Below are positions 20,517 through 50,960 of a DNA stretch of 50,960 bases, in pieces. The first letter of the stretch is position 1. Each line of letters starts with the position of its first letter. This stretch comes from an uncultured Bacteroidota bacterium (lineage in GTDB: Bacteria; Bacteroidota; Bacteroidia; JABEUT01): positions 1 through 50,960 of the forward strand of contig CAIPDV010000030.1 of NCBI GenBank assembly GCA_903863935.1, read 5' to 3'. The notes beneath the pieces are model-generated. The model did no database searches, had not been told where the DNA came from, and saw only the letters and a list, made by a program, of their open reading frames with translations. The position numbers and the translations under genes are program-made.

Positions 20517-23243
20517 CTATGCCTTTTTAAGTTTTAATGCTTTTTGCCTTTCAAAGCCATATTGCAGGATATTATCAATGAATTGATAGGGGGTATATCC
20601 GTTAATTGCGGTTTGGTGAAATATGCAGGTTGCAGGTGTCATTCCGGGAAGCGAATTTACTTCAATAAAGATAACTTCCGCTTTTCCATCCTGAAAAATT
20701 CTCACAAATGCATCAATACGGGCATAGCCTTCAATGTTTAAAAGCTTTGCTGCCTTCAGAAAATCTGCTTTTACCACATCCGATATTTTTTGCCTTAATT
20801 TAGGGTCTGTAGCGTAGCGGGCAGGCGTAATATTCTGCCCTTCTCCGGCTAAAAACTTTTCTTCTAAGGATAATACGGCTCCTTCAGATAAAGCCTCAGA
20901 GGCTTCAAAAATTTCGTATTCTTTTCCTTTATTGGTATAATGCGTTAGCATTCCACCTGTTATTTCTAAAAATCGCGATGCGCCCTTTTTGCTTATCAAC
21001 TCCTCCGCTAAAAATGCTTTTTTGATGGGGAATTCTTCATTCGGACGTATTTTTAGAAGCTCAGTTGCTTTCCTGTCCTTCTCAGGTTTATCGCGGAAAA
21101 TTAGTTTGGTATAGGCATCAAATTCCTGTTGAGATACTACTTTCCTTACCGCTGAACTGCAACCATCATCAATTGGTTTGGCTATAAAAGGAGTACCAAG
21201 TTTTTTTACAAGATTGGCGTATACTGCGTGTTTGTTTTTCTCATTACAATCTTCCTTTGGCACAATCATGTCATCTGCAACCAGCAAGCCATTTTCTCTA
21301 AGGATACGGTCGGTTTCATATTTATTGATCGTGATTGCCGATGTGTTTACAGATGAACCATTGTAAGGCAGCCCAACCCGTTCCAATTCTTTTTGAACAG
21401 TTCCATCTTCACCAGGCCTTCCATGAAGTGCAATGAATACTCCATCCACTTCTTTAGCCAATTGTTCGTAGGTTAATTTTCTTGGGGGAAGCAGGCTTTT
21501 CCCTGTTGCATATTTTCCGGTAATAGCTTTACAGTTTTCCTGTATTTTTTTAATGAAAGGATGAATCTTAAAGTTCAGGATCTTTTCTTTTATATCATCT
21601 GCATTATCTTTCAGCAGAACATTAATTGGTATAGTATAAAGACTGTGTCCGGCAGAATCGCCCATCAAAAAAACAGGCAGTGGCTCATACTTTGCCGAGG
21701 ATGCAAGCTTTTCATAAATATTTCTTCCACTTTCAACTGAGATATGTCTTTCGGATGAATAGCCACCCAGGATAACCGCAATTTTTATTTTAGAAGAAGA
21801 AGCATTTTTTTGTTTATCCAGCATTTCATCCATCTCATTTAACAGCCTTGCATAGGGAGGAAAATGCATGGAAGATATAAGCCTTTGCTGAATAGAGGTA
21901 TGAATAATAAACGTAAGAAACTTGGATGGATTAAGCCCGATTTCGGCAGCCTGGTGAAAAAAGAAAGAGGAAGGCAACATGCCCGAAGTAGTGTTGGGAT
22001 CATTCAAAAACACTTTTCCTTTCGGAGAAATAAATCCATCTATGCGGGCATATACATTAAAACTCATATCGGAAAACAGCTTGCAACAGGCTTCGGATAT
22101 GGATTTTATCTGTTTTTCGGGAAGATCAATAGGTGTTATTTTCCTTGAAAGCCCAGGCAAATATTTGGAGCGGTAATCAAAAATATTTTGTCCTTTGCGA
22201 ATTTCGGTCGGTGGTAAAGCAATGGGGTGGCCACTTTCATCCTGTATTACAATGCAGGAAAATTCTTTGCCATCAAGAAATTTTTCAATGAGCACTTCAC
22301 TTTCGCCGTCGAAAGCTTCTAATAAAATATCTTCTTTCGATTTTTTAAAGATGGAATTAATAGTTGCTAATAGCTCTTCCGGATGGAGAATTACAGTTGA
22401 ATCTTTTTTATGCCTGCCCGAACCAACTGGGGCGGGATTTAACGTCAATGGAAATCCAATATCCTCGCGGATATCCGACATATCACGTATGAGGTTTTTT
22501 TGTTCATCTTTAGTGTAAGAGTTCCATTCGGCCTGAGTGATCTTCTGCATGAAAAAGCTTTTCAGAATAGCCTTTTCGAAGGAAGCAAAATCTGCTTTAC
22601 TAAGAACGGTAGCACCGATAGAAGACCCTTGGTGAGATGGTTTAATAACACAGGGTATTCCTATCTTCTTTTTTATTTCTGTATGTATCTTTTTAAGAGT
22701 TGCTTCCGAAATATGTTCTCTTTTTAAAGTTAAATATTCGGGTGTGGCAAAGCCATAGCTTTTCATCCATTGCCTTTGCAGGGCTTTATCCATACCTATG
22801 GCAGAAGATAATATTCCTGAGCCTGAATAGGGTATTTTCAAAAAATCAAAGAGGCCTTGTATACTGCCATCTTCTCCACCGGCACCGTGCAGGCAGAGAA
22901 AGGCAAAGTCAATATGTTGTTTTAAATCCTCTGCTTTTATATGCGTGCCAATTTTATCCAACATCTCTCTATGCACTTTGGAATCATTTATAGATTCAGC
23001 ATAAACCTGGAAATTGTTGGGGGAGGAGGGAAGGTACTCCACCGGTGGATAAAAATCACGGATGCTTCCTTTGTAAATATATTTCCAATCGAGCAGAACG
23101 AAATTCCCAAAACTGTCAACAAAAATAGGGATTGCCTCAAACAGGGATTTGTCTAGGTTATCATATACAGTTCTGCCGCCTGCAAATGATACTTCCCGTT
23201 CCCGTGAAATACCACCAAAAAATATTCCGATCCTCAACTTCAT
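20517..23243 (-). CDS. Tandem (double-domain) D-alanine--D-alanine ligase-like protein
   Basis: The 908-residue product holds two complete Ddl-like ATP-grasp ligases in one chain. Unit 1 (residues 1 to about 465) begins RIGIFFGGISREREVSF and has KPSHQGSSIGA, the loop FDYRSKYLPG and DPNTTSGMLP. Unit 2 begins at Lys485 (KIKIAVILGGYSSERHISVE) and has KPIDDGCSSAV, EEKFLAGEGQNITPA and IEVNSLPGMTP. Ordinary Ddl is 310-370 residues with one unit. In unit 2 the serine loop and the Tyr-bearing omega loop differ from the canonical pattern; in unit 1 the metal-site motif reads N-D-P-N rather than N-E-x-N. A shared role in peptidoglycan precursor synthesis is likely, but the specificity of each half is uncertain. 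Confidence 0.88.
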   Translation of the reverse strand: MKLRIGIFFGGISREREVSFAGGRTVYDNLDKSLFEAIPIFVDSFGNFVLLDWKYIYKGSIRDFYPPVEYLPSSPNNFQVYAESINDSKVHREMLDKIGTHIKAEDLKQHIDFAFLCLHGAGGEDGSIQGLFDFLKIPYSGSGILSSAIGMDKALQRQWMKSYGFATPEYLTLKREHISEATLKKIHTEIKKKIGIPCVIKPSHQGSSIGATVLSKADFASFEKAILKSFFMQKITQAEWNSYTKDEQKNLIRDMSDIREDIGFPLTLNPAPVGSGRHKKDSTVILHPEELLATINSIFKKSKEDILLEAFDGESEVLIEKFLDGKEFSCIVIQDESGHPIALPPTEIRKGQNIFDYRSKYLPGLSRKITPIDLPEKQIKSISEACCKLFSDMSFNVYARIDGFISPKGKVFLNDPNTTSGMLPSSFFFHQAAEIGLNPSKFLTFIIHTSIQQRLISSMHFPPYARLLNEMDEMLDKQKNASSSKIKIAVILGGYSSERHISVESGRNIYEKLASSAKYEPLPVFLMGDSAGHSLYTIPINVLLKDNADDIKEKILNFKIHPFIKKIQENCKAITGKYATGKSLLPPRKLTYEQLAKEVDGVFIALHGRPGEDGTVQKELERVGLPYNGSSVNTSAITINKYETDRILRENGLLVADDMIVPKEDCNEKNKHAVYANLVKKLGTPFIAKPIDDGCSSAVRKVVSQQEFDAYTKLIFRDKPEKDRKATELLKIRPNEEFPIKKAFLAEELISKKGASRFLEITGGMLTHYTNKGKEYEIFEASEALSEGAVLSLEEKFLAGEGQNITPARYATDPKLRQKISDVVKADFLKAAKLLNIEGYARIDAFVRIFQDGKAEVIFIEVNSLPGMTPATCIFHQTAINGYTPYQFIDNILQYGFERQKALKLKKA

Positions 23244-35025: not shown

Positions 35026-35102
35026 CGTCATGGCGAAGCCATCTTGCCGCTATATATGCTTGGCGATGGGATAGGGTTGCTTCGCCGAGCCTCGCAATGA
35101 CG
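35026..35102 (+). repeat. Palindromic dispersed element, copy 2
   Basis: The left arm CGTCATGGCGAAGC and right arm GCTTCGCC...ATGACG form an imperfect inverted repeat of about 77 bp. The right end, 35080-35102, is the exact reverse complement of copy 1 at 32555-32577. No transposase is linked. It resembles a REP/MITE-type element. Confidence 0.65.
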
Positions 35103-35852
35103 GTATTATTTATAAATAAATACTTTTTTATATTCGATATATATCTGAATTTGCCAAATAACAGCGGTGTAACAAGAAGGAACAGCGGAAATAACAGCAA
35201 AATAACAGGGGTATAAAAAGGTGCGTAAAAAATTAGTTGCTTGATATTCATCAGGTTAATTTTTGATTTTCTTGTTATTAACAAGCGAAAACAGCAATTT
35301 ATAGCGAAAACGTGTATAATCTTTTTCATTTTTGTTATAAACATCTTCAGCTGGTTTCAACATTGTATGGCTTAATTATGTTGTAAAAGTACAACATGAA
35401 AAAGCGGTTTCTGAAAAAGTCAATGACCGTTCGTTTAATTAGGAATTAATAATTAAGAATTAGGAATGAATAGCCACGCTAGTAGTTGATTCCATTAACG
35501 GGGGAAAGCTAAAGCCTAAACATAAAAAAAATAACTCACCTTATACCATGATAATAAACGGTTTGATGAATTTTAAGTTAATTTAAGAAATAAGGATATG
35601 ACCTATATCAGAAAAGAAAATGCCAAATGTGAGTTGTTGAAAATGGTTTTTGACTTTTTAACTCCATTTTCCCTGCACCTGTTTATGCACATTCAAATCA
35701 GATGCCTTAGTTACTGCCTTCTTTGACACACACATTTCATAAATCATCTTTGAAGCCATTATTTCATACCTGATCATTGAATTTTAAAGTAGAGCAAAAA
35801 TAAAAAAGGATATATGAATACATAAACAAGAAGTTCAATTCGTCAAATGGTA

Positions 35853-35901: not shown

Positions 35902-36555
35902 ATGATAACTGCGAAAGGCATACATAAATATTACGGCAAATTACATGTTCTAAAGGGCATTGATCTGGAAGTAAGCAAGGGTGAAGTGGTGTCTATTGTT
36001 GGTACTTCCGGGGCGGGCAAAACCACACTGCTGCACATCCTTGGAACCCTTGACCGTGCCGACCATGGCAGTATTGAAATTAACAACACACCTATACATA
36101 CCCTTAAAGACCGCGAACTATCACGCTTCCGCAACAAACACATTGGCTTCGTATTCCAGTTTCATTATCTTTTACCGGAGTTTACAGCCATTGAGAATGT
36201 GTGCATACCAGGTTTCATTGCTAAAACTCCAACCAATGAGGTCCGCAAAAGGGCAGAAGAGTTGCTGGTGCTGTTGGGTCTGAAAGAAAGACTGGAGCAC
36301 AAACCTTCAGAGCTTTCAGGCGGAGAACAGCAGCGGGTAGCAGTAGCCAGGGCACTCATCAATAACCCATCGGTGGTTTTTGCCGATGAACCCTCTGGTA
36401 ACTTAGATTCGGCAAATGCCAGGGAACTGCATAAATTGTTCTTTCATTTGAGAGATACACTTTCACAAACCTTTGTAATAGCTACCCATAACGAAGAGCT
36501 TGCTGACATGGCCGACAGGAAGATCATCATGAAAGACGGACAAATTCAGTTATAA
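35902..36555 (+). CDS. lolD: LolD-type ABC transporter ATPase
   Basis: This 217-residue ATPase of the LolD/MacB family has Walker A GTSGAGKT at residues 34-41, the Q-loop region [18 protein letters not shown], the ABC signature [15 protein letters not shown] and Walker [13 protein letters not shown] followed by the H-loop IATHNEE. LolD drives release of lipoproteins from the inner membrane to LolA. No LolC/E permease gene is adjacent, which is common in Bacteroidota. The stop codon lies within a 27-base inverted-repeat arm. Confidence 0.88.
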
Positions 36556-36630
36556 GTTATGAGTTATAAGTTATAACCTTTAAGTCTTAACCCAATATGG
36601 ATAATAACTTATAACTCATAACTTATAACT
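36548..36630. terminator. Perfect 27-bp inverted repeat between convergent genes
   Basis: The left arm, 36548-36574, and right arm, 36604-36630, are exact reverse complements (AGTTATAAGTTATGAGTTAT onward) with a 29-base loop. The lolD stop lies in the left arm and the stop of the convergent gene lies in the right arm. It can form a stable hairpin on either strand, so a bidirectional terminator or mRNA 3' stabiliser is the likely role. There is no pure T-run. Confidence 0.7.
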
Positions 36631-39549: not shown

Positions 39550-39622
39550 GCGAAAGTAGCTCAGTTGGTAGAGCGCAACCTTGCCAAGGTTGAGGTCGCG
39601 GGTTCGAGACCCGTCTTTCGCT
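39550..39622 (+). tRNA. tRNA-Gly (anticodon GCC)
   Basis: A 73-nt cloverleaf: acceptor GCGAAAG/CTTTCGC with discriminator T, D-arm AGCTCAGTTGGTAGAGC, anticodon GCC at 39583-39585 and T-arm GCGGGTTCGAGACCCGT. CCA is not encoded. Confidence 0.97.
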
Positions 39623-39703
39623 CTTTCGTCCGCCATTATGCATGTATGGCGGCCTATTAGTAACTTCTGAATGTATTCTTCAGTGTTACAAGTAGTTCTT
39701 TTT

Positions 39704-39788
39704 GCCCTGGTGGTGGAATTGGTAGACACGCAGGACTTAAAATCCTGTAAACATTGCGTTTGTGCGGGTTCAAGTCCCGCCCGGGGTA
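39704..39788 (+). tRNA. tRNA-Leu (anticodon UAA)
   Basis: An 85-nt class II tRNA: acceptor GCCCTGG/CCGGGGT with discriminator A, anticodon stem CAGGA/TCCTG, anticodon TAA at 39738-39740, a long variable arm and T-arm GCGGGTTCAAGTCCCGC. CCA is not encoded. Accessory genes begin downstream. Confidence 0.97.
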
Positions 39789-39849
39789 CTTTGGTAATCA
39801 AGACTTTAAGCACTAATCCCCAAACAGGGTGCGCCCCCTGAAAAACGCA

Positions 39850-40038: not shown

Positions 40039-41067
40039 ATGGACTTTGACACAGTACTTAAACATCTTCAAGACTGGACAAACAAAGTTCCATTGGTGAT
40101 ACTTGGAAGCGGTGCATCTATCCCATTCAACCTGCCTTCAATGCGGACATTAGGCGATCATCTGAAAAAATCAATTTCATTTTCCGATTCTGATGACCAG
40201 CAACAATTTGATGAATTCATAACTCTTCTTGATAAGCATAAGGACTTGGAAGTAGCTCTGCATGAATTACACATCCGACAAAATGTTCTCAATGAGATTA
40301 TTCTCAAAACATGGGAATTAGTAAATAAACATGACCTTGATGCATACGACCAATTTATAAACAACAAAATCGAGTATCCGTTGGCAGAGTTGACAAAGTA
40401 TCTTATTTATCCAACAGAAAAGAAGCTATCAATAATTACAACTAATTATGATAGGCTTGCAGAATATGCTGCAAGTATTGCAGGGGCTTATATTTGTAAT
40501 GGCTTTGCTCAAAACTATTTGGGGCATTTTACAAATCAAATTCATCAAAATAATCTCAAAGGATTAAAGGGTTATAACGGACAAGTAAATATTTGGAAAG
40601 TTCATGGATCTTTAGACTGGTTCAAAACCCAACAAGAATATAATATTCAACTTCCATTACGACATACAATTCCAACCGATTTGAAGCCATCAATAGTAAC
40701 CCCGGGACTATCTAAATATTTTGAAACACAATTAGAACCTTTCAGAACAATTCTTACACAAGCCGATAGCGAAATTGAAAATGCAAATGGATTTTTATGT
40801 ATTGGTTATGGGTTCAACGATATTCATGTTCAGCCAAAACTGCTCACTCAAATTAAAGCCAACAAACCCATAATTGTAATAGCCAAGGAGATTACACCCA
40901 AAACAAAGAATGCAATCATAGATAATAATTGCAAATCGTATATTCTAATTGAAGAAGTAAACACAACCGACACTCGCCTCTATTCATCATTCCTCTCAAC
41001 ACCAATGATTATTCCTAATGTAAGTTACTGGACATTAGCAGAATATCTTAAACTTATTAAATCCTAA
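40039..41067 (+). CDS. SIR2-domain protein of a Sir2-HerA defence pair
   Basis: This 342-residue SIR2-like protein has the nucleotide-binding loop GSGAS at residues 23-27, TTNYDR at 134-139 (Asn136), KVHGSLDW with probable catalytic His189, and GYGFND at 256-261. In known bacterial Sir2-HerA systems the Sir2 subunit degrades NAD+ after phage sensing and assembles on a HerA hexamer. The HerA-type gene starts 4 bases after its stop. A near-consensus TATCTTTA lies at 39992-39999. Active-site residues look intact. AT-rich and following a tRNA gene, the pair was probably acquired. Confidence 0.88.
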   Translation: MDFDTVLKHLQDWTNKVPLVILGSGASIPFNLPSMRTLGDHLKKSISFSDSDDQQQFDEFITLLDKHKDLEVALHELHIRQNVLNEIILKTWELVNKHDLDAYDQFINNKIEYPLAELTKYLIYPTEKKLSIITTNYDRLAEYAASIAGAYICNGFAQNYLGHFTNQIHQNNLKGLKGYNGQVNIWKVHGSLDWFKTQQEYNIQLPLRHTIPTDLKPSIVTPGLSKYFETQLEPFRTILTQADSEIENANGFLCIGYGFNDIHVQPKLLTQIKANKPIIVIAKEITPKTKNAIIDNNCKSYILIEEVNTTDTRLYSSFLSTPMIIPNVSYWTLAEYLKLIKS

Positions 41068-41071
41068 TTAC

Positions 41072-44000
41072 ATGGCAATTTTCAAATTTGAAGATAAATC
41101 TTCCATAGGAACAGTTTTCAGTGTTGATACGGCCACACTAATTGTTAAAGTTGACGAACTAGAAAAGTTAAGAAAGCTACAGGTAAATCATTTGGTTGCA
41201 ATTAAAAGTTCAAAAGCGGGCCAGCACCTTATTGGTATTATTAATCGTATTACTCGAAAAGCTGCTGATGAAGAACAACCTACTGGAGATGATTTAGGAT
41301 TAAGTAATTTTCTTTTTACAGAGAATATTTTGAGAGTAAATTTAATTGGAACTTTGCTTGATAAACATGGGGAAAGAGAAAACGTATTTAAAAGAACACT
41401 TGATACTGTTCCTGAAATTGAAGCTCTTTGCTTTCCGATAGATGGAGAGAATATTACAAAGTTTATGCAGACAATTTCAACAAAGGAAAACTATAAAATA
41501 CCTCTTTCAATCGGTAAGTATTCAATAGATGAAAATGCCGAGGCATTTCTAGATGGAGATAAGCTTTTTCAAAGACATGCAGTAATTGTTGGCAGCACCG
41601 GTTCTGGAAAATCATGGTGTGTTGCAAAGTTTATAGAACAAATTGCAAATCTTCCAATGGCAAACTGCATATTATTTGATATTCATGGAGAATATAGCGG
41701 TAAAGGTTTTAAATCTGACGGGATTCAACATTTGCGAGTTGCAAATCCTTCAGACTTGGGAAAAGGTGGAAATCTTGCTAATAATGTTTTGATGTTACCT
41801 TATTGGCTACTTACTTATGAAGAAATGTTAGCTATGCTACTAGACAGAAGCGATAGCAATGCGCCGAACCAAGCAATGCTATTTTCAAAAACAGTTTTTA
41901 ATGAGAAATTGAAATATCTTGAATCTATAAAAGATACGGCGTTTAAAGATAACATCACTATTGACAGTCCAATCCCTTATAAAATTGAGAATATTTTGAG
42001 TGAACTTATTGCTCTTGATGAACAAATGGTTGAGGGGGCAAGGGCGGGAAGTGAAAAGCAAGGACCTTACAATGGCAAATTGACAAGATTTATACAACGA
42101 TTAGAAGCAAAGAGTCAAGACAAACGATTAGGCTTTTTGTTCCAAATTTCGGAGGATGAACTTCAATTGAATTGGATGAATGAATTGTGTTGTCGATTAA
42201 TGCAAGGTTCAGCTCTTAATGCTAAAAAGGCCGGAATTAAAATTATTGACTTTTCAGAAGTACCTTCAGACGTCCTCCCTCTAGTAATAGGGCTAGTAGC
42301 AAGGATTGTTTTCACAGTCCAACAATGGACAGCGAAAGAAAAACAGCACCCAATTTGTTTATTTTGTGATGAAGCACATTTATACATTCCGGAAAGGATG
42401 AACCAAGATGCTGCTTCTGAACTTGGCCTGAAAAGTTTTGAACGAATTGCCAAGGAAGGAAGAAAATACGGAGTAAGCCTTTTTGTGATTAGTCAAAGGC
42501 CTGCAGAAGTAAATAGAACAGTTTTAAGTCAATGTAATAACTTTATTTCATTGCGACTTACAAACGCGGAAGATCAAGCAGTAATTAAACGACTACTTCC
42601 CGACAATTTAGCAGGTCTTACAGAAGTATTACCTATACTTGATATTGGCGAGGCTTTGATTGTCGGTGATGCGTCACTACTTCCTACGGTACAGGGATTA
42701 GATTATGCTTATACTCTCAATGGCTGGATTAAAGGAGTGAATAGCAGCATTACCATACCGAGTTATGATATGGGCGGGGATGGAGATGTACATGGGCCTG
42801 ATGCTGATGTGGCAAGAGATGCCTACGGATTTACCTTGGATTACTATACTGGCGATTATCGTTCCATAGGTGCAAGTAATTTTGAAGCTACTGGCTTACC
42901 AATAACAAGCCTTTACAACGGCAATATTGCAGCTGCCGCATACGCAATTAAGCACCTTAAACCAGGTACTGTTGGTTGGGTATATGCCTATGATCAGTTG
43001 AACCGTTATCGGGGGCAAACAACATGGATTCACCCAGATAGGATGCTTGATAACTGGAGCACAGGACATACAAGCCCTGCAGCAGAAGAAAAAGTTAATT
43101 ACGATGAAAATGGAAATATTTTAACGTATATTCGCCATGGAAATACTGCAGTAGGACCCGAGGCCATGGACAGCTTAAATTATAACTATAAAAAAGGTAC
43201 AAACCAATTAACCAATGTTAGGGATGGTGTGCCTACCGGAAATTACCCAAATGACATAGATGATGAACCAAGCAAACGGAACTACCAATATAATGCCATA
43301 GGGCAACTCGCAAAAGACAGCAGTGGAGATTTGGATACCATTACCTGGAATGTTTACGGAAAGGTTAGAAAGATTGTGAAGCCATCTGCTCTTTTTGGTT
43401 ATAAGGACAGTATTGTTTTTGTATATGACCCCTTGGGCAACAGAATTAAAAAACTTACATACACATCCGTATATTGCCACCTTTGCGCTGCACCTCCTAA
43501 AGTGGATACCATAATATACTCAAGGGATGCCCAGGGAAACGTACTTGCAATGTATAACAGAAACATTGATACCGTTAAATTAAGCGAATGGGATTTGTAT
43601 GGCAGTAAGCGAATAGGAACTTTAGATACTGGTCTTATAATGTATCCTCCAGTTGCTACATCTTACACCAGTACAATTGACAGTACAACAATATATTACT
43701 TGGAAGGGCAAAAACAATATGAACTAACAAACCACTTAGGGAGTGTATTAGCAACAATAAATGACCGTAAACTGGCTGTGGACACAAATCATGATAGTTT
43801 TACTGATTATTATTTATCCAATACAATTCGTGCTGGGGACTACTATCCTGTAGGAATGCCTATTCCGGGTAGGAGGTTTCAGTTATTGCCCGATAGCGAA
43901 TATAAGTTCGGTTATCAAGGTTCTATGAAGGATAACGATATTTATGGGAAAGAAAATGCATTTACTACAAAAAATAGGGAGTTAGACGATAGGTTAGGAA

Positions 44001-44782
44001 GGTGGTGGAGCATTGACCCAAAGCCTCATCCCTCATGGAGTCCGTATGTGAGTATGAGTGATAACCCAATTTTTTTAAATGATGTAAATGGAGACACAAC
44101 AATTTATTACAGTAGTAAAGGAGTACGATTGTTTGATGCTACTGATGATGGTCTCGCGACAGCAATTACAATTATAGATGATAAGCATTTACTGGATTTT
44201 CAAGGTGAGTTAGCTCTTGACAAAGGGGTCAAGGATAAGAATGGAAAAAGTTGGCATTTAGAACAATTTTCGTTCCCAAACAAAAGATGGAGAACCTATG
44301 GAAAAACTTTTGATATAAATGGAATAAGAAAATTTTATAAGGATAATACAGTAGATAAAGTAAATAATACTGTAAAAGGTAACGATGGAAAAGAGGCCAC
44401 ATACCCCAAAGGTTTTTTCAATGAAGCAGCAGCTAATCTCTACATGGGAAGCGACGGGTTAATAAGACCTGCTGGAAAAAATGCAAAAGGTGATTTTTAT
44501 ACTTCCAAACCTGGCCCTAAAGAGGCAGGATTTGGAGATCCCGCTGGAGATATTCATACACACCCTAATGAAGATGAATATGATTGGACAAAATATTCCG
44601 CTTTTAGCCTGAATCCAAGCTATGAGGATAGCCATATTGCAAGTAGTAACGGGGATGTTGACGTAATTGCTGGTCGCTTAAATATAATAATTTACAATGG
44701 TCAAGGGATGCTTATTCGTGTCGACAGGAGAAGCCTAAAAGACAAACCAGGAGACCCACCAGGAAGTGTTGAAGTGAGGTAA
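41072..44782 (+). CDS. HerA-type ATPase fused in frame to an RHS core and C-terminal toxin-like domain
   Basis: This is a single 1,236-codon frame. Residues 1-538 are HerA-like: an N-terminal HAS-barrel-like region, Walker A GSTGSGKS at 174-181, FDIHGEYSG, Walker B LFCDEAHLYIP (Asp433/Glu434) and VISQRPAEVNRTVLSQCNNF, ending IGEALIVGDASLLP. From residue 539 the text becomes an RHS protein: VQGLDYAYTLNGWIKGVNS, YD-repeat-like NYDENGNIL, and core LDDRLGRWWSIDP to about 1006. The C-terminal domain, about 1007-1236, has HTH at 1162-1164 and SYED at 1183-1186, a JAB/MPN (DUF4329-like) pattern. HerA lacks its usual last tens of residues and RHS lacks its large N-terminal part. It may be a natural fusion, or a recombination or assembly junction. 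Confidence 0.85.
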   Translation: MAIFKFEDKSSIGTVFSVDTATLIVKVDELEKLRKLQVNHLVAIKSSKAGQHLIGIINRITRKAADEEQPTGDDLGLSNFLFTENILRVNLIGTLLDKHGERENVFKRTLDTVPEIEALCFPIDGENITKFMQTISTKENYKIPLSIGKYSIDENAEAFLDGDKLFQRHAVIVGSTGSGKSWCVAKFIEQIANLPMANCILFDIHGEYSGKGFKSDGIQHLRVANPSDLGKGGNLANNVLMLPYWLLTYEEMLAMLLDRSDSNAPNQAMLFSKTVFNEKLKYLESIKDTAFKDNITIDSPIPYKIENILSELIALDEQMVEGARAGSEKQGPYNGKLTRFIQRLEAKSQDKRLGFLFQISEDELQLNWMNELCCRLMQGSALNAKKAGIKIIDFSEVPSDVLPLVIGLVARIVFTVQQWTAKEKQHPICLFCDEAHLYIPERMNQDAASELGLKSFERIAKEGRKYGVSLFVISQRPAEVNRTVLSQCNNFISLRLTNAEDQAVIKRLLPDNLAGLTEVLPILDIGEALIVGDASLLPTVQGLDYAYTLNGWIKGVNSSITIPSYDMGGDGDVHGPDADVARDAYGFTLDYYTGDYRSIGASNFEATGLPITSLYNGNIAAAAYAIKHLKPGTVGWVYAYDQLNRYRGQTTWIHPDRMLDNWSTGHTSPAAEEKVNYDENGNILTYIRHGNTAVGPEAMDSLNYNYKKGTNQLTNVRDGVPTGNYPNDIDDEPSKRNYQYNAIGQLAKDSSGDLDTITWNVYGKVRKIVKPSALFGYKDSIVFVYDPLGNRIKKLTYTSVYCHLCAAPPKVDTIIYSRDAQGNVLAMYNRNIDTVKLSEWDLYGSKRIGTLDTGLIMYPPVATSYTSTIDSTTIYYLEGQKQYELTNHLGSVLATINDRKLAVDTNHDSFTDYYLSNTIRAGDYYPVGMPIPGRRFQLLPDSEYKFGYQGSMKDNDIYGKENAFTTKNRELDDRLGRWWSIDPKPHPSWSPYVSMSDNPIFLNDVNGDTTIYYSSKGVRLFDATDDGLATAITIIDDKHLLDFQGELALDKGVKDKNGKSWHLEQFSFPNKRWRTYGKTFDINGIRKFYKDNTVDKVNNTVKGNDGKEATYPKGFFNEAAANLYMGSDGLIRPAGKNAKGDFYTSKPGPKEAGFGDPAGDIHTHPNEDEYDWTKYSAFSLNPSYEDSHIASSNGDVDVIAGRLNIIIYNGQGMLIRVDRRSLKDKPGDPPGSVEVR

Positions 44783-44792
44783 TTTCAAATTA

Positions 44793-45371
44793 ATGGGAAT
44801 AAAAAAATTAAAGCCGAGTTTCATTTTATTTTTCTTAATTGCCGCATGTTCTAATATGAAGCAAGCTAAGGATGATCGCATGATAAATGAGGCTAAATGG
44901 TTTTATTATGAATCTAATTTTTATTTGGGTGAGGTTACACCATATTGGCGACCAAAAAACGTTGATATTTCTATGGACACACTTAGTAATATTTGTTTTA
45001 TTAATAATAACCTCACCTTGAAAGTGGATACAGTAATCCATTTTGGTGATACCACAGAAATAAATCTTGCTATTTGGGATGTTAAAAGGAATGTGGAATT
45101 TTATCCTTGCTGTAATTTTAATGGAATTCCCTTTCTAAACATATTTGGCTTCTATCCTAATGTAGATACTATTTCTTATTGGAGTAATAATGGGCTTAAT
45201 ATCAGGAAACGTTCAGTTAATAGGGAACAGTTTAGCGACACACTTGAAAAATTTGGAATTTATAAAAGGAAGAAATTGAGGAAGATTTTCAAGGATTTTA
45301 TTGTGGAGAATAAAGAAAGATTGAATCCTTGGCTTAAATCAGAAGCCAAAAAGAGGGGATATATTAAGTAA
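44793..45371 (+). CDS. Putative lipoprotein in immunity-gene position
   Basis: This 192-residue protein has a lipobox (FFLIAAC) after a short hydrophobic leader, then a soluble domain with a Cys pair (FYPCCNF) and a basic C-terminus (YKRKKLRKIFKDF). No family is recognised. It starts 10 bases after the RHS-toxin gene, exactly where polymorphic-toxin immunity genes lie. A periplasm-facing lipoprotein would suit a toxin acting in or entering through the periplasm. This role is inferred from position only. Confidence 0.65.
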   Translation: MGIKKLKPSFILFFLIAACSNMKQAKDDRMINEAKWFYYESNFYLGEVTPYWRPKNVDISMDTLSNICFINNNLTLKVDTVIHFGDTTEINLAIWDVKRNVEFYPCCNFNGIPFLNIFGFYPNVDTISYWSNNGLNIRKRSVNREQFSDTLEKFGIYKRKKLRKIFKDFIVENKERLNPWLKSEAKKRGYIK

Positions 45372-45575: not shown

Positions 45576-47684
45576 ATGAGAAAATTGCTTCCGCTAATAT
45601 TAGTTTCTATTTCCACAGTAACTTATGGGCAAATTACATTTTATTCCATTCCTAAAGATTCCGAATTAGTAGCCCGTGATTTAACCACAAATGTCGGCTC
45701 AATTACCATCAGCGGTAATGTAAATAATAAACAATCAGCTTTCGATTCCCTTTGTGTAAAGGTATACACTGACGATTTGATAAGCGATTCGATTTATCAA
45801 ACCTTAGTTTATTCAGGCAACGATGCACCTTTTAGTTTTTCGGTGCAAATTCCCGCCGAATTGGCAGAACATAAAGTGTTGGTTTACGGAATAAAAGACG
45901 GGGCCGAAGCACTTGATACAAGTATTTACGGCATTGTCTCGGGTGACGTTTACATAATAGAGGGTCAGTCCAACGCCCTTGCTCAAGGCCGCGATCATGA
46001 AAGCGCCAACGGAAATAAGAGCGAGTTCATCAGGGTATTTGGTAACAGCGATTCGAGCACAAAAGGCTTACTTAAGAATTTAAGGTGGTTTGAGGGACAG
46101 GGTGACGGAGGATTTAAAGAAAATGGACATGCAGGGCAATGGGGGCTCAGGGTAGCAAGATTGCTTGTTGAACGTGTTAAAATTCCGATTGCCATTTTTA
46201 ACGGGGCCTGCGGAGGCACCCCTATTAACTACTATGAACGCCCGCCAAATTATATTACGAAAGTCAACTCTAATTACGGACGCCTCTATTACCGACTATC
46301 TCTGTGCGGATTGCAAAATAATGTCCGTGCCATCTTTTGGTGCCAGGGCGAGACAGACGGATTAAATGGCACATCCACTTCACAATATATCGCCAGTTTC
46401 AATAACCTCTATAAATCTTGGAGGGAAGATTATCCTTCGATAGAAAAGACCTATATTTTCCAAACCAAGTCCGAGAAAATATACCCGTTAAATGGCTTGA
46501 TGGCAATCGAAGAAGCGCAAAGGGAGGTTACGACAAAAAATAAAGACATAGAAATTATTCCTACGTCAGGACTGAAAGCTGACAGATCAGGAACCCATTT
46601 TGTATACAAAGGCGGCTATGAAGAATTCGGAAACAGGTTATTTCGTTTGGTGGCACGTGATTTATACAAAGTTAAACCCGAACATAAAAAGGGAGTTGAT
46701 GCCCCCATGATACGGACCGCATATTTAGACGATTCCGTTACCTTGGTTATCGAAGAGAACACGAAAGCTTTGGTTCCTCATAATACCAAACTACCGATCA
46801 TGGGATTTGAGGTTGAAAATAGAGTTGGGGCAACTATTGATACAATAATGGTTAAGAAAAACAAAATAATGCTGTACCTTTCAAAATATCCCGGAGATAA
46901 AGCAACGGTATCTTATATAGGGCAACAGAAAATATCTGAAAATTGGCTGACTACTATTGACAGTATTGAAACCCTTTCTTTTTATAAGTACCCCATAACA
47001 ATTCCATCAACAAAATTATCTTCCGGAACAAGAAAATACCATCGGGCCGCACCAATTATAGCATCCAAACCTGCACCCACCCTGCCCCGTAGGAATCTCA
47101 GAACAGTTAATAAGCCGGTTTACGACAGTTGCTTCACAAATAAAGAGGACGCGAGAAACAGTTACATGAACGGTTTAAAGGACGGCAAGTGGATCGAATA
47201 CGCAGATGTGAATTTTAACAAAGTGACGGATACAAATGCACCCTATTACATCTTGACAGTTTACAGCGCCGGCAAACCTTGTAATATTTCACGCAGGTAT
47301 TTTAAGGATGGCAAACTAAGGGATGTATTCCGATTTAAAAATGGCTTGCCCAACGGAATAAAAACTTCCTTTTATGAAAGCGGAAAAATAAAAGATGAGA
47401 TTCCCTTTACCGATGGGAAAATTAACGGAGTTGCAAGAACATATTACGAAAACGGTCATTTAAAGGGTGAGACAGTCTATTTATTCGGTGTTGAAAACGG
47501 AACAGCCAGGAACTATTACGAAAACGGTACACTGCAAGGTAAGGCTACTTTTCAGTATGGAAAAATAAATGGAGTTGCAATAACTTATTATGAGAATGGT
47601 AAAGAGTGTTGTGAAATGTCATACGTTAACGGGACAGTCAGTTCTAAAATATCATACGATAAAAATGGACGCAGACTCAATTAG
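45576..47684 (+). CDS. Secreted SGNH (SASA-type) esterase with MORN-type repeats
   Basis: This 702-residue protein has a signal peptide (PLILVSISTVTYGQ) and a beta domain. A sialate O-acetylesterase/SASA-type SGNH hydrolase domain follows: IIEGQSNALAQG with nucleophile Ser132, GACGGTPINYYERP, FWCQGETDG, and Asp336/His341 in ADRSGTHFVYKGGYEEFGNR. After a linker come about five MORN-variant repeats (residues about 590-700: YYENGHLKGETVYLFGVENG, YYENGTLQGKATFQYGKING). The combination suggests deacetylation of surface or dietary glycans. No T9SS tail is present. The amine oxidase gene follows after 29 bases. Confidence 0.85.
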   Translation: MRKLLPLILVSISTVTYGQITFYSIPKDSELVARDLTTNVGSITISGNVNNKQSAFDSLCVKVYTDDLISDSIYQTLVYSGNDAPFSFSVQIPAELAEHKVLVYGIKDGAEALDTSIYGIVSGDVYIIEGQSNALAQGRDHESANGNKSEFIRVFGNSDSSTKGLLKNLRWFEGQGDGGFKENGHAGQWGLRVARLLVERVKIPIAIFNGACGGTPINYYERPPNYITKVNSNYGRLYYRLSLCGLQNNVRAIFWCQGETDGLNGTSTSQYIASFNNLYKSWREDYPSIEKTYIFQTKSEKIYPLNGLMAIEEAQREVTTKNKDIEIIPTSGLKADRSGTHFVYKGGYEEFGNRLFRLVARDLYKVKPEHKKGVDAPMIRTAYLDDSVTLVIEENTKALVPHNTKLPIMGFEVENRVGATIDTIMVKKNKIMLYLSKYPGDKATVSYIGQQKISENWLTTIDSIETLSFYKYPITIPSTKLSSGTRKYHRAAPIIASKPAPTLPRRNLRTVNKPVYDSCFTNKEDARNSYMNGLKDGKWIEYADVNFNKVTDTNAPYYILTVYSAGKPCNISRRYFKDGKLRDVFRFKNGLPNGIKTSFYESGKIKDEIPFTDGKINGVARTYYENGHLKGETVYLFGVENGTARNYYENGTLQGKATFQYGKINGVAITYYENGKECCEMSYVNGTVSSKISYDKNGRRLN

Positions 47685-49364: not shown

Positions 49365-50960
49365 TTATTTAACCAATATTACCTTACGATTGAATGTATC
49401 ATTTCCGATTGATATGTGAATAAAGTAAACACCATTGGCTTCATTACTGAGGTTAATTAATTTTGAGAACTTACCACTTATACCCTCCTTGCACTCGGAG
49501 ATAACCTGTCCGAGTTCATCGGTAATTTTAAATGTCAAGCCGGCACCTTCTTTTGTCTCAACGGTAAGTGTAAAAGTGCCCGTGTTTGGATTCGGATAGA
49601 TGCTTATTATTGAGGAATTGTTTGTTGAATTAATTCCCGTCAGTAGTGACACAACTACGCAAATACTGTCCTTACATCCATTGTTATCAATAACCATGCA
49701 ACAATAAGTCCCGAAACATTGGTTACCTATCGAATCAGTAGTTTGATTATTTGGCGACCAAAGGTAGGTGTAGGGTGGTGTCCCTCCCGTTGGAGTAGCT
49801 TTTGCAGTTCCATCGCATGGACCGTGGTCTGACGTAGAAGATTGCAAAAGGCCAAGGGGAGATGAAGGCTCGGTAATCGTCACGGACATGGTCGCACTGC
49901 ATCCATGATTATCGGTGGCAGTAATTGTATAACTACCTGCACTTAGATTTGATGCTATAAGATTTGTTCCGCCGCTTGGTGACCACGCATAAGTATAAGG
50001 TGATGTACCTCCAGTAGCTGCATTAGCTATAGCACTTCCTGTTCCGCCATTACAGGCAATATTATTTTGCGAAGCAATAGTAATTGAAGTAACAGCAATA
50101 GGTTGAGTAATCGCTACAGTTGCGGTTGCAGTGCATCCGTAATTATCGGTGACAGTGATAGTATAACTACCAGCACTTAAGTTCAACGCCGCGAGGTTTG
50201 TTCCGCCGTTTGGAGTCCAGCTATAAGTATATGGAGCTGTGCCTCCCGTTGCAGGGTTGGCTGTAGCGGTTCCTGTTCCACCGCTACAAGCAATATTATT
50301 TTGTGAAGCAATCGTAATGGAAGGTGTAGTGGCAGGTTGAGTAATCGTTACAGATGCGGTTCCAGTACATCCATGATTATCAGTGACCATAATAGTATAA
50401 CTACCGGAGCTCAAATTCGATGCTGCAAGGTTAGTTCCACCGCTTGGAGTCCAATTATAGGTATATGGAGACATGCCTCCGATTGCAGGGTTAGCAGTAG
50501 CACTTCCTGTTCCGCCTTTGCAGGCAATATTATTTTGTGATGCAATCGTAATAGAGGGAGCAGAAGCCGGTTGAGTAATTGTCACAGATGCGGTTGCGGT
50601 GCACCCATGATTATCTGTTGTGGTAATTGTATAACTGCCAGCGCTCAAATTAGAAGCAATAAGATTTGTTCCGCCCGTTGGGGTCCAGCTATAGGTATAA
50701 GGGGATGTACCTCCCGTCGCTGAATTGGAAATTACCTCGCCAGTTCCTCCATTACATTGTACATCCGTATGACTTGAAATACCAATAGCGAGAGTCGATG
50801 TAGGCTGGGTAATATTAATTGAAGCGGTTGCACTACACCCGTTGTTATCTTGAACACTAACAGAATAAGTTCCTGCACTCAGACTGCTCACTGTAGCAGT
50901 AGTTGTAGAACTGCCATCTGACCAGTTGTAAGTATAAGGTGTAGAACCTCCTGATGGAGC
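49365..50960 (-). CDS. SprB-repeat T9SS protein (partial, continues past the right edge)
   Basis: The visible part is 531 codons. The frame stays open to the window edge, so the start lies outside. It consists of tandem SprB-type repeats (PYTYSWTPTGGTNL, SAGSYTITTTDNHGCTATASV, TITQP). These are followed by a variant repeat with four Cys (CDGTAKATPTGGTPPYTYLW, CFGTYCCMVIDNNGCKDSIC) and a T9SS type A sorting domain (SIYPNPNTGTFTLTVE to the C-terminus). SprB itself is the mobile gliding adhesin of Flavobacterium johnsoniae; this relative may be an adhesin. The 3' gap to the oxidase gene is 94 bases. Confidence 0.93.
   Translation of the reverse strand, partial: APSGGSTPYTYNWSDGSSTTTATVSSLSAGTYSVSVQDNNGCSATASINITQPTSTLAIGISSHTDVQCNGGTGEVISNSATGGTSPYTYSWTPTGGTNLIASNLSAGSYTITTTDNHGCTATASVTITQPASAPSITIASQNNIACKGGTGSATANPAIGGMSPYTYNWTPSGGTNLAASNLSSGSYTIMVTDNHGCTGTASVTITQPATTPSITIASQNNIACSGGTGTATANPATGGTAPYTYSWTPNGGTNLAALNLSAGSYTITVTDNYGCTATATVAITQPIAVTSITIASQNNIACNGGTGSAIANAATGGTSPYTYAWSPSGGTNLIASNLSAGSYTITATDNHGCSATMSVTITEPSSPLGLLQSSTSDHGPCDGTAKATPTGGTPPYTYLWSPNNQTTDSIGNQCFGTYCCMVIDNNGCKDSICVVVSLLTGINSTNNSSIISIYPNPNTGTFTLTVETKEGAGLTFKITDELGQVISECKEGISGKFSKLINLSNEANGVYFIHISIGNDTFNRKVILVK
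49870..50960 (-). repeat. 234-bp tandem repeats in the SprB-like gene
   Basis: The phrase CAATATTATTTT (plus strand) begins at 50057, 50291 and 50525, exactly 234 bases apart, and a diverged counterpart falls near 50759. Each unit encodes 78 residues, one SprB repeat. Central copies are close to identical at the DNA level. The array continues past the window. Confidence 0.9.

Follow-up and report, generated by a model that had tools for sequence, protein, structure and literature searches.

Among prokaryotic defence systems, the closest described counterpart of the locus considered here is Sir2-HerA, a two-gene anti-phage system. The C-terminal end of HerA has been characterised in other members of the family: in Sulfolobus it is a conserved brace that clasps the neighbouring subunit (PMC5715905), and HerA-DUF4297 possesses a C-terminal hook, mutations at the assembly interface of that system having impaired both complex formation and defence (PMC11291478). 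The second precedent comes from rhs loci. Orphan rhs tips are a known state of these loci and usually lack translation start signals, and in Salmonella a silent orphan tip was expressed upon fusion with the main rhs gene (PMC3967940). Here we describe a Bacteroidota genome in which a HerA gene of the Sir2-HerA kind and an orphan RHS tip meet within one open reading frame. We favour, as a reasonably probable explanation, a recent and one-off deletion or recombination that joined HerA to the tip.

The window, by which we mean the whole stretch of DNA analysed (50,960 nucleotides), is a complete contig (C30), one of 126 in a 3.76-Mb, 98.3% complete genome, and contains no ambiguous bases. Relatives place the genome in the Bacteroidota, a same-class genome (G014) matching a contig of Salibacter halophilus. 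On its forward strand, positions 41072-44782 form a single ORF of 1236 aa, open throughout and free of stops, frameshifts and Ns in the assembly, just as an initial annotation of the letters had described it. HerA accounts for residues 1-538/539, and the text changes to RHS at about base 42,686, where IGEALIVGDASLLPT (HerA text) is followed by VQGLDYAYTLNGWIKGVNS (RHS text). SIR2 ends 4 bp upstream of HerA, and the two genes match PADLOC models PDLC04087 and PDLC04105, which bears out the proposal of a SIR2-HerA operon; a SIR2 homologue likewise adjoins HerA in related loci. Coordinates of the relevant features are collected in Table 1.

Table 1. Features of the HerA-RHS locus and its upstream flank, in window coordinates.
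Feature	Position	Strand	Basis and remarks
tRNA-Gly(gcc)	39550..39623	+	ARAGORN
tRNA-Leu(taa)	39704..39789	+	ARAGORN; SIR2-HerA segment probably inserted here
SIR2, 342 aa, full length, HerA partner	40039..41067	+	PADLOC PDLC04087, 2.8e-123 over 4-340 of 343; Pfam SIR2_2
HerA core, 538-539 codons	41072..42685	+	Walker A GSTGSGKS, Walker B LFCDEAH, extends to LLP, without the conserved tail
HerA/RHS junction	42684..42688	+	Breakpoint to within a few bases, placed against HerA (L055-L058) and RHS relatives
5'-truncated RHS core, ~470 codons	42686..44095	+	Single copy in genome
Variable RHS C-terminal domain, HTHP...PSxxD	44096..44782	+	JAB-like (Tox-JAB) cargo by motif only; family name after PMC3482391
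192-aa lipoprotein, lipobox LIAAC	44793..45371	+	By position and lipobox probably the cognate immunity protein; features Imm65-like

The N-terminal part of the frame matches PDLC04105 at 2.6e-226, contains the Pfam domains DUF87 and HerA_C, and is 91-92% identical to its closest counterparts, four HerA proteins of other Bacteroidota (L055-L058). It is not a complete HerA, the model match ending at position 531 of 576 (from position 1). The initial annotation had the frame running to the normal late motif of HerA; that motif is indeed reached, but a normal protein extends 43-48 aa beyond it. In the 65 relatives whose 3' end is readable (54-92% identical), HerA stands alone without exception, and in every one of them the stop lies 43-48 aa past LLP[T/S]. 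The consensus of this tail among the relatives is R[VI]x[IV]xEPxxKPxSATxxFWxxWs...A...LRKQSk, and an alignment of 39 diverse HerA sequences contains nine invariant tail residues, including FW, another W and two prolines. In the window the conserved tail is wholly missing, some 44 residues and the stop codon having gone, and no second HerA tail was found elsewhere in the 98.3%-complete genome, the downstream DNA included.

Structural modelling of a relative suggests that HerA has lost its tail and nothing else. The model of L057, which is 91% identical to the window protein over the shared part, has a mean pLDDT of 82, and its alignment with solved HerA chains (Sir2-HerA, HerA-DUF4297 and archaeal) ends at residue 536-537, the equivalent of residue 537-538 of the window protein. 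Past the aligned core, the model shows a linker of low confidence and a pair of short helices; the stretch that includes the second helix is predicted with confidence. Judged by this model of L057, the core of the solved chains reaches the residue before the junction, and the break is placed at the structural boundary between core and tail. By analogy with other HerA systems, the missing tail may act as an inter-subunit clasp; since, according to one review, a Sir2-HerA structure showed no similar C-terminal hook (PMC12198126), the effect of tail loss here is one that we infer. Measured against its close relatives, HerA has a dN/dS of 0.03-0.05, the level also seen between the relatives themselves, and any loss of HerA function would therefore be recent.

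The RHS identity of the downstream text is likewise upheld: of the 395 genomes of the class, 104 have RHS proteins that align with it from 42,686 onward. It begins mid-core, at VQGLDYAYTL, and most of the relatives that contain this starting point are frames of 2,000-4,500 aa, in which a large amount of RHS text precedes it. The missing RHS 5' part had also been pointed out, and none is present upstream in the window. Nor was an RHS N-terminal half found elsewhere in the 98.3%-complete genome, in a search whose query lacks a positive control there; a second copy of the tip was likewise not found, nor was any DUF6443 domain scoring above its cut-off. A full-length RHS protein, with N-terminal half, complete shell and export signal, is thus not what the window encodes. 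It has the make-up of an orphan tip: a partial core, a variable C-terminal domain and a small gene downstream, with no 5' half of its own. RHS tips without a 5' half are frequent in the class, where they form frames of ~450-700 aa.

The C-terminal domain carries the motif HTHP...PSYED and has no Pfam match at E 10; its structure predicted from the single sequence (pLDDT 36) was discarded. A 2761-aa RHS frame (L172) ends in a 27%-identical domain that has the HTHP...PSxxD motif in common with it. The lipoprotein encoded next is, by its position and lipobox, the probable cognate immunity protein of the RHS tip, and no homologue of it was found. Together, the domain and the lipoprotein resemble the Tox-JAB-1/Imm65 pair, a likeness of motif only.

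Read at face value, the frame would link a carrier of polymorphic toxins with NAD+ depletion, and this was the idea put forward by the initial annotation, which named the lack of any homologous fusion and a clean HerA stop in relatives as observations that would count against it. Both were made: in the collections searched, the 68 related HerA loci among them, there is no other HerA-RHS fusion, and the readable relatives, 65 of 65, stop cleanly after the tail that is missing here. Frame-length surveys covered 395 genomes of the class and 395 of the phylum, with HerA present in 22 and 51, respectively; in both, this genome (G000) alone has a HerA frame longer than 750 aa. On plasmids, 669 records match the fused query, none covering 80% of it and none spanning both halves, and the HerA matches among those listed end at residue 539. 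The exact 24-base junction pattern is absent from the viral contigs searched. At least one independent genome of the same architecture was sought in every collection and found in none of them, and by these comparisons HerA-RHS is not a conserved fusion family. The continuous frame is thus confirmed, whereas the idea of a coupled system finds no support.

It is also very unlikely that the protein functions as a chimera, whether by HerA serving as the translational donor for an orphan RHS toxin or by a phage-triggered SIR2-HerA assembly that would carry an RHS toxin, in place of the lost tail, or release it inside the cell. Such a role would suit the open frame, the break at the HerA core/tail boundary, the intact SIR2 and ATPase motifs, the low dN/dS and the linked putative immunity lipoprotein, and in Salmonella orphan rhs toxins do come to be expressed by fusion, albeit with the main rhs gene (PMC3967940). 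However, no homologous fusion occurs in the collections searched; the tail that was lost is conserved in 65 of 65 relatives, from Bacteroidota to Proteobacteria; the RHS shell is without its first half and there is no secretion signal. Moreover, the probable immunity protein would be exported, leaving the cytosol unprotected.

A deletion or recombination scar, or else an assembly artefact, had been offered as alternatives from the outset, rightly so, as these are now the leading readings. The junction is known from one assembly alone, and an intact HerA gene could have been misjoined, near base 42,686, to an RHS gene from this strain or a different one. We regard such an assembly chimera as the main rival reading, though a somewhat improbable one: the assembly is a draft of 126 contigs, the same-genus genomes compared with it are mostly incomplete drafts, HerA and RHS genes both occupy hypervariable regions, the RHS genes of relatives often stop at contig ends, the join is absent from any second genome, and HerA, at the dN/dS given above, has not decayed. 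Yet the join contains no N or gap, the stretch around it (42500-42900) is single copy in the genome, and no repeat is common to both halves at the junction that might have confused an assembler. Furthermore, the HerA tail and the RHS 5' half were found on no other contig of an assembly that is 98.3% complete. The usual repeat-driven misjoin is accordingly disfavoured, both by the lack of a junction repeat and by the absence of the missing pieces from other contigs.

A random join between two co-oriented genes keeps the reading frame one time in three, so the continuity of this frame can be accounted for without selection. At the breakpoint there is neither an att repeat nor a transposon nor any long microhomology, and the flanking DNA examined at 68 related HerA loci, a possible source for a deletion, contains no RHS. 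With HerA and the RHS core taken together, the best GC3 change-point is at codon 525, close to the junction, with a shift from 0.23 to 0.34; with the whole frame, the best split lies elsewhere and is not significant, and GC3 consequently lends the junction weak support. A scan for promoters and terminators gave no excess over shuffled sequences. Counting against a scar, besides this lack of marks at the breakpoint, is the neatness of the break, which lies right at a domain boundary in a way not required of a random event.

Elsewhere in this genus, too, an RHS tip has come to lie next to a gene unrelated to it. In another member (G010), a 5'-truncated RHS tip follows directly after an lptG-like gene and is itself followed by the contig end (L171:9562-10095); this 3' fragment and part of the RHS in the window are 67% identical. 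The finding would suit insertion of an RHS tip-immunity cassette into the 3' end of HerA, the HerA tail being displaced or lost as in displaced RHS tips, an account that departs from a deletion or recombination scar in the order of events only. It is nevertheless the reading to which we give least credence, as the HerA tail was found neither downstream nor elsewhere, and there are no repeats at the cassette boundaries.

The operon itself appears to be a newcomer at this position. In the same genus, the tRNA-Gly/tRNA-Leu pair commonly lies directly after a lolD-like gene, and eight of the eight same-genus tRNA loci examined lack SIR2-HerA, the RHS and the window's downstream genes. In the closest relative (G005, same genus), a tyrosine integrase gene adjoins the pair (L163:8466-9197), which suggests a reused integration site. 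Because the same-genus loci are without the segment and an integrase is present in G005, the SIR2-HerA segment was probably inserted at the tRNA site, with tRNA-Leu as the putative attachment site; no att direct repeat or other useful repeat bounding the segment was found.

Several other observations concern this and related loci. Three of the four closest SIR2-HerA loci (L055, L056 and L058) have an N6/N4-type DNA methylase gene (632-671 aa) ~4 bp before SIR2, as exemplified by the gene that ends just upstream of SIR2 at L058:6949-8964, and L055 has a second copy, 53% identical, further upstream. This gene occurs in 4 of 68 related loci only and is absent from the window. Elsewhere on the contig, an ~83-bp palindromic element (36548-36630) belongs to a type that recurs at many intergenic sites, in either orientation, here and in other genomes of the genus, and a 270-400-bp element (35077-35470) is repeated on many contigs of this genome, its longer copies, among the matches listed, being confined to this genome. 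A 431-aa TIR/SEFIR-domain protein (882-2177) is possibly the product of another defence gene. A 908-aa frame (20517-23243) comprises two complete D-Ala-D-Ala ligase units in tandem, a sialic-acid-type esterase domain is fused to C-terminal MORN-variant repeats at 45576-47684, and the contig ends inside an SprB-like surface protein with 234-bp repeats (49365-50960).

Under the one-off deletion or recombination that we prefer, the starting point would have been a horizontally acquired SIR2-HerA operon beside the tRNA-Gly/tRNA-Leu pair. Recombination or deletion would then have brought the 3' end of the operon up against an orphan RHS 3' tip, composed of the truncated core, the variable C-terminal domain and the immunity lipoprotein, removing the last ~44 HerA residues with the stop codon and leaving the RHS 5' half absent. 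The join being in frame by chance, translation of HerA would continue into the tip. The HerA core should still fold, without the tail that clasps a neighbouring subunit in other HerA proteins, and would carry an open RHS fragment that could not close into a shell; the RHS cargo would gain a translation start and no export signal. With the tail gone and an unclosable fragment attached, the SIR2-HerA defence is probably weakened or dead. The open frame, the loss of the conserved tail and of the RHS 5' half, and the lack of any similar fusion are seen directly; we infer that the junction exists in the cell, as we do this order of events and their functional effect.

A frame of this kind, taken as it reads, would be listed as a defence-toxin architecture of a new kind, whereas comparison makes it a singleton in which both partners are truncated. 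If the junction is real, it would represent a clear case in which an unrelated gene has acquired an orphan RHS tip, and equally a natural deletion of the HerA tail whose effect on Sir2-HerA assembly is directly testable.

Set against described systems, the locus is like Sir2-HerA in its adjacent, full-length SIR2 and in a HerA with ATPase motifs and full core; it is unlike that system in that HerA, without its 44-aa tail and stop, runs into RHS, as it does in none of the relatives. The RHS half resembles the orphan (displaced) rhs-CT/rhsI tips in its partial core, variable C-terminal domain and linked immunity gene, and in having no 5' half or start of its own (PMC3967940). Whereas the silent tip of Salmonella is, when expressed, joined to the main rhs gene, the tip in the window abuts an unrelated defence gene, in a genome where no main rhs was found. 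With the RHS proteins that carry Tox-JAB-1 beside an Imm65 lipoprotein, the window shares a Bacteroidota RHS carrier, an HTH motif with a downstream S..D and a lipoprotein gene next to it (PMC3482391), but it has no profile match, the assignment consisting of these motifs and one 27%-identical homologue. What the window presents is a defence operon of a known kind, in which HerA is cut off where its core meets the tail and continues into an orphan RHS tip.
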